A DNA stretch of 64,000 nt from Hericium rajendrae (taxonomy: Eukaryota; Basidiomycota; Agaricomycetes; Russulales; Hericiaceae). The stretch is from the NCBI GenBank assembly GCA_033439255.1, contig CM065878.1:1364001-1428000 (forward strand), read 5' to 3'. The notes below the pieces were generated by a model, which searched no databases, had not been told where the DNA came from, and saw only the letters and a list, made by a program, of their open reading frames with translations. This document shows positions 37,332 to 46,716 of this stretch, piece after piece. The position numbers and the translations under genes are program-made. Positions within the stretch are counted from its first letter, which is position 1, and each line of letters starts with the position of its first letter.

Positions 37332-38702
37332 ATGTCCTACCCTCTCACCCCCGCTGACCTCCGCGATATCCTTGCTTTCACGATATCCATCGCCCACACG
37401 GCGGGCGAGCTCATGCTCGAGGGCTCACGCGCCATCCAGGGCCAGTCGGCCGACGAAGTCCAGGAGAAGAAGAATTCCGTGGATCTGGTGACGGAGTACG
37501 ACACCAGGGTCGAGGAGCTCGTGAAGGCCGCGATCGCCAAGAACTATCCCAACTTCAAGTTGTGCGTCGCGTTTCTCTTGTAACCGAGAGCGAGAGCGAG
37601 AGCCCGCTCGGCTTGCGATCCTGCGATCATGCAGAGATGAAAGGCATAGGCTAACGCATGCGTTCATTTGTGCGTAGCATCGGCGAGGAATCCTACGCCG
37701 CGGGATCCCGCGAGCCGCTCACCGACGAGCCCACCTTCTGCGTCGATCCCATCGGTACGTCCCATCCCGCCCTACTAGTACAGGCCCACGCGCCCACCTC
37801 AGCTCACCGACCGGCAGACGGCACAACGAACTTCGTGCACGGCTTCCCCTTCGCCTGCATCTCCCTCGGCCTCATCGACCAGAAGCGCCCCGTCCTCGGC
37901 GTGATCTACAACCCCTTCCTCGACCACCTCTACACAGGCATCAAAGGCCAAGGCGCCTTCCTCTCGCGCAACGGCCGCCCGCGCGAGCAGCTCCCGCTCG
38001 CCGCGCCGCGCCCGCTGCCGTCGCTCTCGCAGGCGCTCGTCGCGATCGAGTGGGGCTCGGACCGCAAGGCCGCGGTGCTCTCGCCCAAGGCGGAGTCCTT
38101 CCGCCGGCTCGCGGGCGACCCCGACGGCGGCGTGCCGCGCGGGCGCATGGCGCACTCGCTGCGCTCGCTCGGGAGCGCGGCGCTCAACTTTGCGATGGTC
38201 GCGCAGGGCGGGCTCGATATGTACTGGTGCGTGGTGCGTTTGGCGGGTGTTGGCGCTGCTTATGCGTTTGCGCCGCAGGGAGATTGGCTGCTGGTGAGTG
38301 AGTTGTGGTGCGCTGGCCCTGGATGCGGTGACTGATGCGTGGCGGCGTTTGGCCAGGCCTTGGGATGTCTGTGTACGTGCGGGCTCAGAATCTATCGGCG
38401 TTCAATTTAGCTGAAGGTCGGCTGAACAGGCCGGCATTGTGGTCGCCCAAGAAGGCCGGAGGTTTCGTTACAGGCTCGAAGGACTCGCCGCATGACGGCG
38501 ACGTCACGGAAGGCATCCTCACTGGGCGCAAGTACCTCGTTATCCGCGCAATTGCAGACACAAAGGTCCGTCGGCGACTCGTGCATGATTTCTATCCATG
38601 CTGATTGATCTGCGCTTTAATTAGGATGAGACGGGCTTCCAGGCGCAGCAGCGGATCGCAAAGGAGTTCTACGACACCGTTGAAGATGTGAACCCCGAGT
38701 GA
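37332..38702 (+). CDS. Inositol monophosphatase-family phosphatase
   Basis: Mg2+-dependent sugar-phosphate phosphatase, most likely inositol-1-monophosphatase. The N-terminal helix reads FTISIAHTAGELMLEGSRAI. The metal-binding motifs are in order: NSVDLVTEYDTRVEE, IGEESYAAGS, the core [20 protein letters not shown] (joined across an intron at about 37755-37818), and GCWPWDVCAG near the C terminus, which supplies the last metal aspartate. The loop GIKGQGAFLSRNGRP is also typical. About six exons; stop TGA at 38700-38702. One extra G at 38454-38455 breaks AGIVVAQE from AGGFVTGSKDS, which are normally contiguous in this family. The QutG-type quinate-cluster homologue is an alternative, but no other quinate genes are nearby. 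Confidence 0.9.
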
Positions 38703-39005: not shown

Positions 39006-40889
39006 ATGGACGTGCACGGGGGACACAACCTTTCCACCTCTCTTCTGGACAACAACCTCAGCCTACATCTCAACCTGCGTGCACTGAATGCACGGACTCA
39101 AGAACTAGAGGCGAAGCTAGCGGCCGCTGAGCAGAGACTCGTCAAAGCCAAAGTCCGCATACAGAGATCCCTTGATGTGCGTGCCATTTTCGATCTTCGT
39201 TATGCGCGGATTGGTATAAACATGTTGGAACTGTCAGGTTATCGATATCTCCGATGACGAAGACGAGCCGGCAGCGTCTGAGACATCGACTCAGCGAGGC
39301 AACGGGCAAGAACCGGACGTACGTGCGCCCTAAGACTTATCTATGTGCAAAACGCTATAATTTCGTTGGGAACTTTAGGTCATAGACATCTCAGAAGAGC
39401 CCGATGTCCCATCTCAGATCTCGACGCGGCGCAGCAACAGGAAAAAATGTGACGTACGTGCATCTTGGACTTCTTTATGCGCAGAATGTTATAATTCTGT
39501 TGGGAACTTTAGGTCATAGAGAGGAACCGGATGTCCCATCTCGGACTTCGACGCAACGCTGCAACGGGGAACAATTTGACGTATGTCACTCTCTCGAATT
39601 GATCTGTGCCTAAACTGCTACAAGTCTGTTGGGATGTTAGATTATCGACATATCATCGGACTCGGAGGATGAATCGGGTGTCGCGACTTGCATGTCGAAG
39701 CAGCAGAGCGTGCAAGATAAGGCATGTACGGCTCCGAGGGCTCGCGGCAGGAAGAGAGCTGCAGCTAATGCTTTGGAGAGCCGGCGTGTCACCGTTCGAA
39801 GCAGAGACAATGCATCTGGCCTGGACTCGGGGAGTCAGGCAGCCGCTAGCTGCGCTGGAGATGTTTTAACGACGTCAGACGAGCATCCGTCGAAGAGGGC
39901 GCGAATGGATATATCATCCACGGGGTATGTTTGAAAGTTCATGGTCACAACGCTCGCTTGCTGATCTGGTGGTACGTGCAGTAATGCCCAGGATGCCGAA
40001 TTAAAGGTTAGCGCATGAGCAATCGCCTGAGGAGCTCGATATTGACATGACAGATTTTCATCTTAGATTATCCTCCCGTCAGTCTTCAAACGAGACGAAC
40101 CATACATTTTGCGAGTTCCCCTGCCACCACACATCTCGGGGAGAATTCAGACCCAGAGCCTCCCCAAGATTGTTGTTACCAAACGCTTCATGAAAGAGCA
40201 GTTAAATACCGTCACACGGACGAAGCAATTAAATTGGAACACCGTCAGGGTCCTCGATTACAGCTTCCTGGATCCTTGCTTCGACCCACTCGCACCACTC
40301 ACGCCGGGGAACGCAGGGGCATTCTTGAGCTTTGGCTCCGAGGTGGACGAGAAGACACTGCCGGAGCGGATCCATGTGTTTGTTGGCAATCTCAAGTCAG
40401 ATAAGTATCAGTACCGAGGCGACTACCAAATCGCGGGCGCCAATCCGCACAAACTTCCCTTGGCAGCATGGGTCAGGCTGAAGACCATCGTGCGTGTTCG
40501 ATTCACGCCTAGTAGATGCATAGTGCTTGTGTTGATGCCCTTTCCAGTGCAAGGAGAAATGGATCCGTCGTGTTTTGGATGGTCACAGCCTGTTAGCCCA
40601 GAAGATGAAGGCAAGGGTTATCCACTTCCAAAAGCACAGGCATGAAGCCACCCCCGCCGAGATCGACGCTATCATGAAAAGCCATATTGTGCCCGACAGC
40701 CAAGCCATTCGAGAGGCCTTCAATCGGGGACTTGTAGTGCGTATACTCTTCTGTATTCTGGTCTTCAGCGCTCATCTGGTGTTATAGTCGCTCAATTTGT
40801 GGGCGTTGGTCTGCGTTGGTTTTGACTCGAGTTTAGTAAAGGCTATACAGGAGGAGCAGCAAAACACAGGGTCTGAAGAGCGTTTCTGA
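39006..40889 (+). CDS. Protein with coiled coil and tandem SUMO-interaction-like motifs
   Basis: The first exon (39006-39176) ends in a coiled coil (LNARTQELEAKLAAAEQRLV). Then come four similar short exons: VIDISDDEDEPAASETSTQR (39238-39318), VIDISEEPDVPSQISTRRSN (39379-39453), a third copy VI..EEPDVPSRTST (39513-39580), and IIDISSDSEDESG, which opens a longer exon from 39641. V-I-D-I followed by Ser/acidic residues is the classic SUMO-interaction motif. A basic segment (RARGRKRAAANALESRR) and KRARM follow, suggesting nuclear location. The C-terminal domain includes ILRVPLPPHISGRIQTQ, RIHVFVGNLKSDKYQYRGDY and KEKWIRRVLDGHSL; this may be the fungal DUF6697 type, from memory only. Last exon ends ...QNTGSEERF, TGA at 40887-40889. 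The third copy exon is 68 nt and out of phase. Confidence 0.72.
39177..39640 (+). repeat. Tandem intron-exon duplication units
   Basis: Four introns (39177-39237, 39319-39378, 39454-39512, 39581-39640) resemble each other, most ending in a version of GTTGGGAACTTTAG, and each is followed by an exon beginning GT(C/T)AT or ATTAT. Repeat period is about 130-140 bp, covering both intron and exon, so whole intron-exon units were copied in tandem. Confidence 0.8.
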
Positions 40890-41311
40890 GGTTTGCACTG
40901 TTGGACCAAGTTATCCCATATCGCAGCTTCCAACAAGACGGGAGTGTGATCCTCTCACTGACAAACCCTACTATTGCCAAACGCGACGATAAGCGCCAAT
41001 ATGTGCGAATACATTATGCACGCAATGATATACTAGAAGTCTAGCATACAGCCATGGCAACGATTGTAAGTTGAATAGAGATATAAGGCAACGGCCGCTC
41101 GCACCCGCAAACGCCAGGGAATACAACAACAGTCCATATGCACAGCGAATCCCGAATCACATAGTCCGTCACAGACAGGTCGGACACACCGTCAGCGTGG
41201 GCGGCCACGCGACCAAGGTGCCGCTCTGCGGCGAACGCGCTCCGGGGCGCCAGTGCGCTGCGACGAGCTGATCTCGCCGACGCGACCCACGCAACCGAGC
41301 AACAGCGCCAC
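40890..41311. other. Intergenic between convergent genes
   Basis: About 420 bp with no supported gene. Confidence 0.35.
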
Positions 41312-44732: not shown

Positions 44733-46350
44733 TTGTCACTCCCCCGCGACAGCAAGTCGCGACGGACGGTGTGGAGAGAACGTTGGTCGACGTGGTGAAC
44801 AGTGAGGAAGGATGCGAGCCGCGCCCATAATATTCGTGATGTCCCCGCCGGAGCCGCCGCCCCGGCGCAGCTGCGTTATTTATTTTTGCCTTTTTCAGAC
44901 GGTGTCTCCGTCCCGATATTATAAATTGCCCTCACGAAATCCCTCTTTCTTTCATCCTGCCATGTCATGCACCATGATCAACCCTACCCTCGTCCCCAGT
45001 CTGCCTCCGTATTTCGGCGCACGATCGCACACTTTGAGAGCACTATCGACCGTCAAAATATCTTGTCTTGCACTCGTTCTCTTGGTTCAGTGGCGGGTTC
45101 CTGTGCCTTGCTTCGCTTCTCTCGGCACCTCCAGCACGCGGGGCGACCGGGCCACCAGATCTCCTGAGCCTTGAAGCACTTGCTACATAACAGCATCTAC
45201 ATATCAGACCTGGCAGTCATATTTTCGGCAGTATTTTCTGAGATGTAAGACTTCCTTGTCTATGCCATAGTGCGTTGCTTAGTATCTGCTGCGGTTCTGA
45301 CTATTCAGCCGCACAGACCGCTTGTGACAAACTCATCGCAAATGCTTTAAGGTGAAAAACAGAAACACTGTACGCATCAGCCGTTTCGCTCCGCGCGCCC
45401 ATCTGATATAACGATACCTCTTCCAGATGACCTCCACTTACCTGCCCATTCCGGCAGATGCGTAGATTATCTCTCCGCTATGTTGTACTTCCGTACAGCA
45501 GGTCGATTAATCGATTAGCTCCGGATGTCGCTAACGTCGATGATCTGCTCCGTTTGTTCGTCATCTGCGGCGGGTGGCGTACTTTATAAGCAGGAGGTAC
45601 TTATGCCACATGGTCGAGGAATTTTTTCGTGACGGTCCGTTTCTTTCGTCTAGGGTTCTACTGCTTCGCTTGCCGACCGTCCACCGAATAACTGCAAGTG
45701 GAGCTATCGCTGAAACGTCGGACCCTGGCCTCTCGGCGATGACAGGCTTCAAACGGAACACTCGAATTGCGCAGCAGTGCTCTACATCTGATGTGGATCC
45801 TGCCTGGGCGTCGACCTCTCACCCGACTATCGCAGTCCATCTTGTCTGGCCTTACCTGGCCTTGCAGTACAGCCGCAAATTGATCTCACCACTTTCTCAT
45901 CTTCCCTGCCTGCTCGCTGCCTATTATCTTCAAGTACCTGTGTCGCCTGACTGCGAATAACATTGATCTAATCATAATCCAATCTACCAATTGCGCATCG
46001 TCTGATTACGAAGACAACGGCGCCTGCAGTAGTTCGAGCGCCTTTGCGGTCGTACTGAGCCCACCTCATGGCGCAGGCCCTTAGATGACTCGTGTTCGGA
46101 AGGTACGAACTTCAGATGGGTACAGGCCAGGAACGTGATAGATCTCGAGCAGGCCTGAGGCCTGCCGGGACAGGGAGATTACATGCTGCAGGAACGGATC
46201 GGACTAGTCATTTAGTTCGTACACTGTTCGTACCTTGGGGCCGTGGGGCTCGAGTTAAGCCTCCGGATAACCTATAAGTAGTTTTAAATTATCTCAGAAA
46301 CTGCCATCGCGATATCCTCCGATTTTGCGCTGAGTAGGATAACGAGATCG
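44733..46350. other. 1.6 kb without a supported gene
   Basis: Holds the promoter of the ubiquitin protease. Short open frames (for example around 45574-45960) lack domains. A short inverted pair, AAGGTACGAAC near 46097 and GTTCGTACCTT near 46224, is noted but weak. Confidence 0.35.
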
Positions 46351-46716
46351 TACCGCTCGGTGTTTCGACAAAGGCTTCTTACGCATCAACACACTATTGG
46401 GTGAAAGCTGGAAGAAGGGGCCCGGAGCGGAAGGATAGAGTCTCCATGTTGTTACAGTGTTGATCCGTCAATTACAGTACTTCCAACCTTTTCCCGCACT
46501 TCCTTTTCCATCCTCCCATTCCATCCGAATTCCTACCGCTCGGTGTTTCGACAAAGGCTTCTTACGCATGAACACACTATTGGGTGAAAGCTGGAAGAAG
46601 GGGCCCGGAGCGGAAGGATAGAGTCTCCATGTTGTTACAATGTTGATCCGTCAATTACAGTACTTCCAACCTTTTACCGCACTTCCTTTTCCATCCTCCC
46701 ATTCCATCCGCATTCC
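46351..46716. repeat. 183-bp direct tandem duplication
   Basis: Positions 46351-46533 and 46534-46716 are two head-to-tail copies differing at only about four bases. Both start TACCGCTCGGTGTTTCGACA. The second copy ends nine bases from the ESS1 stop codon, so the duplicated unit is the ESS1 3' untranslated/terminator region. Confidence 0.93.

Follow-up and report, generated by a model that had tools for sequence, protein, structure and literature searches.

Tandem copying of an intron-plus-exon unit with a SIM-like motif in a DUF6697 gene of Hericium rajendrae

SUMO-interaction motifs (SIMs) have an hhXh core with an acidic or SxS flank, and their consensus is degenerate, with many predicted SIMs probably not real (PMC8616421). 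In RNF4, multiple SIMs give avidity for SUMO chains, as measured, and their spacing matters (PMC3901395), while SIMs set far apart may engage a number of separate partners (PMC12751080). In Daxx, the motif IIVLSDSD is phosphorylated by CK2 (PMC8616421). We describe a gene in a 64,000-nucleotide stretch of the Hericium rajendrae genome, analysed as a whole and called the window below, in which SIM-like motifs stand at the starts of exons of a copied series.

Gene model and tandem copying

In our model the gene has nine exons on the plus strand between 39006 and 40890 of the window, with splice sites read by eye and checked by script (Table 1). All eight introns are 51–61 nt long and run from GT to AG, intron 6 with an unusual donor (GTTAGC). 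When exon 4 is left out, the remaining exons form a single open frame for a predicted protein of 449 residues, in which DUF6697 (PF20411), a domain of unknown function according to its Pfam name, is the sole Pfam family (residues 261–438; E 4.1e-24; 85.9 bits against a gathering cut-off of 23.9; profile positions 13–176 of 177). The first 212 residues gave no Pfam match at E up to 1. This DUF6697 domain is divergent, with 22% identity in the aligned part to the domain at 2727.9 kb on contig C6, and the next best genome match of exon 7 reached E 0.0095 and 31% identity. Folded alone without an alignment, exon 7 gave a mean pLDDT of 34.7. A profile of six aligned DUF6697 pieces gave six weak matches among PDB sequences, all to SETDB1 chains and none significant (best E 0.17), which perhaps reflects a Tudor-like strand pattern. 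The gene upstream, at 37332–38702, reads like an inositol monophosphatase gene. Farther along the window, 46343–46708 is a tandem duplication of 183 nt, in two copies 97% identical; since 183 is divisible by three, a reading frame could run through both copies if the segment is coding.

Table 1 Exons of the window gene and the introns of its repeated part.
Feature	Position in window	Strand	Remarks
Exon 1	39006..39176	+	57 codons; coiled-coil-like N-terminus (read by eye from the sequence, without computation); phase 0 end
Intron 1 (I1)	39177..39237	+	76% identity to I3 (0/1000 shuffles); weaker against I2 (3/1000) and I4 (17/1000)
Exon 2	39238..39318	+	27 codons; SIM-like VIDISDDEDE
Intron 2 (I2)	39319..39378	+	78% identity to I3
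Exon 3	39379..39453	+	25 codons; SIM-like VIDISEEPD
Intron 3 (I3)	39454..39512	+	homologous intron; genome search returned itself and the adjoining I2 copy only
Exon 4 (decayed unit 3)	39513..39580	+	68 nt; 7-nt deletion; motif lost (VIERNR)
Intron 4 (I4)	39581..39640	+	68% identity to I2 and I3 (0/1000 shuffles)
Exon 5	39641..39924	+	SIM-like IIDISSDSEDE (SxS, phosphoSIM-like), then a basic stretch
Exon 6	39982..40006	+	25 nt
Exon 7	40067..40489	+	DUF6697, first part
Exon 8	40548..40736	+	DUF6697
Exon 9	40788..40890	+	end of DUF6697 and stop

The first four introns are 59–78% identical in pairwise comparison (over alignment columns). We compared each pair with 1000 single-base shuffles in which six bases at the start and three at the end were fixed, and found that the similarity of I1/I3, I2/I3, I2/I4 and I3/I4 was never reached, that of I1/I2 was reached in 3 shuffles and that of I1/I4 in 17. 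By contrast, all 16 pairs of I1–I4 with I5–I8 were reached by at least 59 of 1000 shuffles. Within I5–I8 the counts were 5 for I5/I8 and 38 for I6/I7, so a single low shuffle count can be chance. Exons 2, 3 and 4 are likewise homologous, with 0 of 1000 shuffles for each of the three pairs (z 10.7 for exons 3 and 4, z 6.3 for exons 2 and 3). At its start, exon 5 shows a weak likeness to exon 2 (1 of 1000 shuffles) and exon 3 (8 of 1000) and no clear one to exon 4 (51 of 1000), and its membership in the series therefore rests mainly on intron 4.

Borders at 39176/39238, 39318/39379 and 39453 are in phase 0, exon 2 being 81 nt and exon 3 75 nt long. Units 1 and 2 show the features of symmetric-exon tandem duplication, namely homologous exons with homologous flanking introns and phase 0-0 borders; unit 3 (exon 4) is homologous, yet now 68 nt long. 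Because I1–I4 are homologous and unlike I5–I8, we conclude that a unit of intron plus exon was copied in tandem. The likeness of the introns, and the copying of whole units with phase-0 borders, had been read from the sequence in the original prediction and hold up here (four of the six intron pairs were beyond all 1000 shuffles); its further statement that each copy stays in frame does not, as unit 3 is out of frame when spliced canonically.

Four similar short introns in succession could also arise from introner-like mobile introns, each inserted separately rather than by tandem duplication. We regard this as very improbable, given that the exons between them are homologous as well, at the z scores reported above, and that the genome search with intron 3 (best candidates scored) recovered nothing beyond the gene's own copies. 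A 15-base pattern from the intron ends was also not enriched, with 24 + 15 = 39 matches against 28 + 34 = 62 for the reversed control (up to 2 mismatches). Near-identical introns at many loci, the mark of introner-like elements, were not observed, and such a spread was rejected. Neither the 464-base interval of the repeats nor a 67-base piece with intron 3 had a copy outside the gene in the 46.8-Mb genome of 19 contigs (best candidates scored, very common words skipped). The lack of copies elsewhere together with the unenriched intron end argues that intron and exon were copied together on the spot and that no dispersed intron is involved.

SIM-like motifs and the decayed third unit

Four consecutive exons had been predicted to start with V/I-I-D-I within 39177–39640. 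We found this start at 39238, 39379 and 39641, the last being one base beyond that interval; the exon at 39513 reads V-I-E-R-N-R and is 7 nt shorter than exon 3 by alignment. The repeats stand as first described, except that three motifs are present and not four, and an array of four intact SIMs was rejected because unit 3 is broken. An hhXh core followed by an acidic or Ser flank is present in three units and absent from unit 3, and the three motifs match the core with acidic or SxS flank given in PMC8616421.

At 68 nt, exon 4 breaks the reading frame, and its canonical splicing shifts the frame of exon 5 and brings a stop ahead of DUF6697. Full length can be reached only by skipping exon 4, which leaves an intron of 187 nt, or by including it in frame in one of three ways: 57 nt (AG at 39522–39523 to the normal donor), 72 nt (normal acceptor to a donor lying 4 nt inside intron 4) or 63 nt (AG at 39520–39521 to that same donor). 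These forms were enumerated with the upstream donor (intron 3) and the downstream acceptor (intron 4) fixed and with splice sites unscored, and none of the three retains a SIM. We infer that unit 3 dropped its motif through the 7-nt deletion after copying, and that it would be skipped or trimmed in splicing.

To count SIM-like motifs we used the pattern [VI][VI][DE][VIL] followed by at least four D, E or S in the next eight residues, two of them being D or E. The N-terminal part of the gene has three sense-strand matches; 500 random sequences drawn from a first-order Markov model averaged 0.008 and never had more than 1. A background of 145.5 kb, read in six frames, has one match; it comprised the window outside the gene, five ubiquitin-like loci and 27 loci of an acceptor pattern with their centres removed, 4 of these 27 being near-identical to one another. 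Across the genome that DNA pattern, which is a splice acceptor with [VIM]-I-D-I directly after it, occurs 38 times versus 13 for the reversed-pattern control, and three of the 38 fall within 418 bases in the gene. When 30 of the 38 matches were read by eye, the acidic criterion was passed by the three window matches and by locus L061 (VIDINDEERQSQ), which is absent from the background count because the centres of these loci had been cut out.

Four other loci (L055, L059, L060 and L062, on contigs C9, C10, C11 and C11) share a near-identical segment that follows TAG and reads IIDIDN(D/N)AVVDGSSEESTESEKEDE. The same 15 bases occur on C19 at 116198 and 172463. This repeated segment is probably a multicopy element or a gene family.

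Comparison of exon 2 with exon 3 shows 4 synonymous changes (3.7 sites) and no non-synonymous ones (11.3 sites) in the five codons of the motif, and 6.2 synonymous (13.0 sites) and 12.8 non-synonymous changes (44.0 sites) in the linker. The exon 5 motif differs from that of exon 2, and from that of exon 3, by 3 synonymous changes and 1 non-synonymous change (V to I) in each comparison, and exons 3 and 4, compared in a trimmed frame, differ by 4 synonymous and 8 non-synonymous changes. These small numbers, on five motif codons, are compatible with constraint on the motif and little constraint on the linker.

Since unit 3 requires non-canonical splicing for a full-length protein, the gene could be a decaying duplicate, with neutral tandem copies and with the 7-nt deletion as the onset of pseudogenisation. 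The stop that canonical inclusion of exon 4 brings before DUF6697 would fit such decay, as would the divergence of the domain and the weak next best match of exon 7 noted above. It is nevertheless a quite unlikely explanation in our judgement: without exon 4 the gene keeps one open frame, GT-AG introns and nearly the full span of the DUF6697 profile (13–176 of 177), and the motif codons of exons 2 and 3 differ only synonymously.

Related DUF6697 genes and SUMO in the genome

A DUF6697 profile search gave 18 exon-level matches, which were grouped by hand into the window gene and eight other genes; some C6 pieces near 2716.7–2717.5 kb overlap in profile position. Four of these genes, in the same grouping, lie within about 23 kb on both strands of C6 (2715–2738 kb). 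A six-frame scan of 58 kb around the eight genes returned four SIM-like matches in total, all at most 1300 nt upstream of the domain: on the sense strand in four of the eight genes, and on the antisense strand in none. In 300 Markov random sets the mean number of matching genes was 0.03 and the maximum 1. The remaining four genes gave no SIM match in the 1300 nt scanned. The motifs are IIEIESTDDE, VIDLDSDSEPE (twice) and VIELSSYDDE, and the two VIDLDSDSEPE genes are so closely related that they amount to little more than a single event.

In three of the four motif-bearing paralogues, the motif lies in a phase 0-0 exon of 42, 45 or 69 nt directly after a coil-like first exon, one of these three models needing a GC donor in intron 1. 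In the fourth, on C5, the motif follows the intron after the coil-like exon, as read by eye from the sequence. On C6 the gene near 2738 kb, whose model extends into its second exon, shows a coil-like exon and no SIM match. Each motif-bearing paralogue has one match, compared with three and a remnant in the window gene. Since the DUF6697 domains are much diverged, a motif at the same gene position speaks for an ancestral SIM exon, and the SIM exon probably predates the duplication.

We also found a SUMO gene, on C8: the locus passes the Pfam cut-off for Rad60-SLD, and the peptides of two exons there, which we joined by hand, match PDB chains of SUMO2 and Smt3. Another Rad60-SLD (SUMO-like) protein, with an acidic stretch, is encoded near 1790 kb on C3 (E 1.2e-10); it is presumably of the Rad60/Esc2 type.

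The repeated segment might instead be an acidic-hydrophobic motif for another partner, for example another ubiquitin-like protein or a basic protein, and no functional SIM array. The degeneracy of the SIM consensus and the doubtful reality of many predicted SIMs (PMC8616421) favour such a partner, as do the diverged linkers between the motifs, whose many amino-acid changes indicate that the short motif alone was kept. We consider it unlikely, because what is kept, in the window gene as in the four other motif-bearing DUF6697 genes, is the hhXh core followed by an acidic or Ser-acidic run, the usual form of a SIM, and because the genome encodes SUMO. The SIM-like character ascribed to the motifs in the original prediction is in line with these occurrences in four of eight relatives and with the synonymous-only change between the motifs of exons 2 and 3 (five codons).

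A candidate multi-SIM protein and known systems

Given a SUMO gene, motifs that fit the SIM pattern and the documented avidity of repeated SIMs, we read the window gene as encoding a DUF6697 protein that binds SUMO chains or several SUMO moieties. With moderate confidence, we predict such binding by a multi-SIM protein whose valency changes through duplication and decay of a symmetric exon. A single SIM, encoded by a small symmetric exon (phase 0-0) that follows the coil exon, was probably present before in the gene from which this branch descends. Tandem copying of the SIM exon with its upstream intron would have produced four units, one of which would then have lost its motif through the 7-nt deletion, presumably to be skipped or trimmed in splicing. 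The resulting protein, probably nuclear, would have a short coiled-coil-like N-terminus, a flexible stretch with three SIMs and a C-terminal DUF6697. Its SIMs may grip poly- or multi-SUMOylated partners by avidity, dimerisation through the coil would double their number, and the gripped partners would have DUF6697 brought to them. Against the reading of one bound chain, a protein with several SIMs may hold a number of SUMOylated partners together (PMC12751080). Fast evolution of valency is plausible within this one genome, given a single match per motif-bearing paralogue and three with a remnant in the window gene.

More broadly, DUF6697 proteins could be undescribed fungal SUMO readers in which a SIM in its own symmetric mini-exon acts as a cassette, its number going up by duplication and down by decay. 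The decayed exon 4 could then serve to switch splicing, because a transcript that includes it canonically encodes a protein cut short ahead of DUF6697. This extension is tentative, and we lean slightly against it.

If the motifs bind SUMO, they offer a functional handle on DUF6697, and the DUF6697 genes of this one genome, with no match, one motif or three, form a natural series for the evolution of SIM valency, which would let the effect of each added motif on chain binding be tested. A symmetric exon that carries one short linear motif is a concrete route to changing motif number in a single step, and the window gene is perhaps a natural example of how the number of SUMO tags that a protein grips can be tuned. 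In the open-licence literature we found no paper naming DUF6697 and none bringing together SIMs, tandem duplication and exon duplication; searches for SIM work in fungi and Basidiomycota gave papers on other subjects by title, papers on exon duplication or symmetric exons included none on SIMs by title among the matches listed, and SIMs with motif evolution led only to the GCNA paper. Exon duplication is well known. Repeated SIMs are well known too (PMC12751080). In the literature searched, what is new is that the two occur together, in an uncharacterised family whose motif has a symmetric exon to itself.

Compared with described systems, the window protein resembles RNF4 and other STUbLs in having several SIMs in its N-terminal part, which in RNF4 provide avidity for SUMO chains (PMC3901395; PMC12751080). 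This likeness is by pattern only (three motifs). The protein differs from STUbLs in the spacing of its motif starts (27 and 25 residues when exon 4 is skipped) and in carrying DUF6697 and no RING domain detectable by Pfam, which returned DUF6697 only and left the first 212 residues blank. Without a RING by this measure, nothing supports a STUbL, and STUbL identity was rejected. Of the initial interpretation, intron-plus-exon copying and SIM-like character are retained, and four motifs, copies all in frame and a STUbL-like role are given up.

The phosphoSIMs of Daxx and PML are similar in having a hydrophobic core followed by SxS and acids (PMC8616421; PML: PMC4276917), so that IIDISSDSEDE of exon 5 and VIDLDSDSEPE of two other DUF6697 genes can be set beside the Daxx motif. 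They belong to other proteins with other domains, and the likeness of exon 5 to a phosphoSIM is one of sequence. In GCNA, Wss1 and Spartan, SIMs likewise occur in disordered regions that evolve fast and adjoin a folded domain; that domain is a protease there, and the part of the source available to us describes no multiplication of SIMs by intron-plus-exon copying (PMC5098910). The other DUF6697 genes are of the same family as the window gene, and the four that bear a motif have a single match where the window gene has three.
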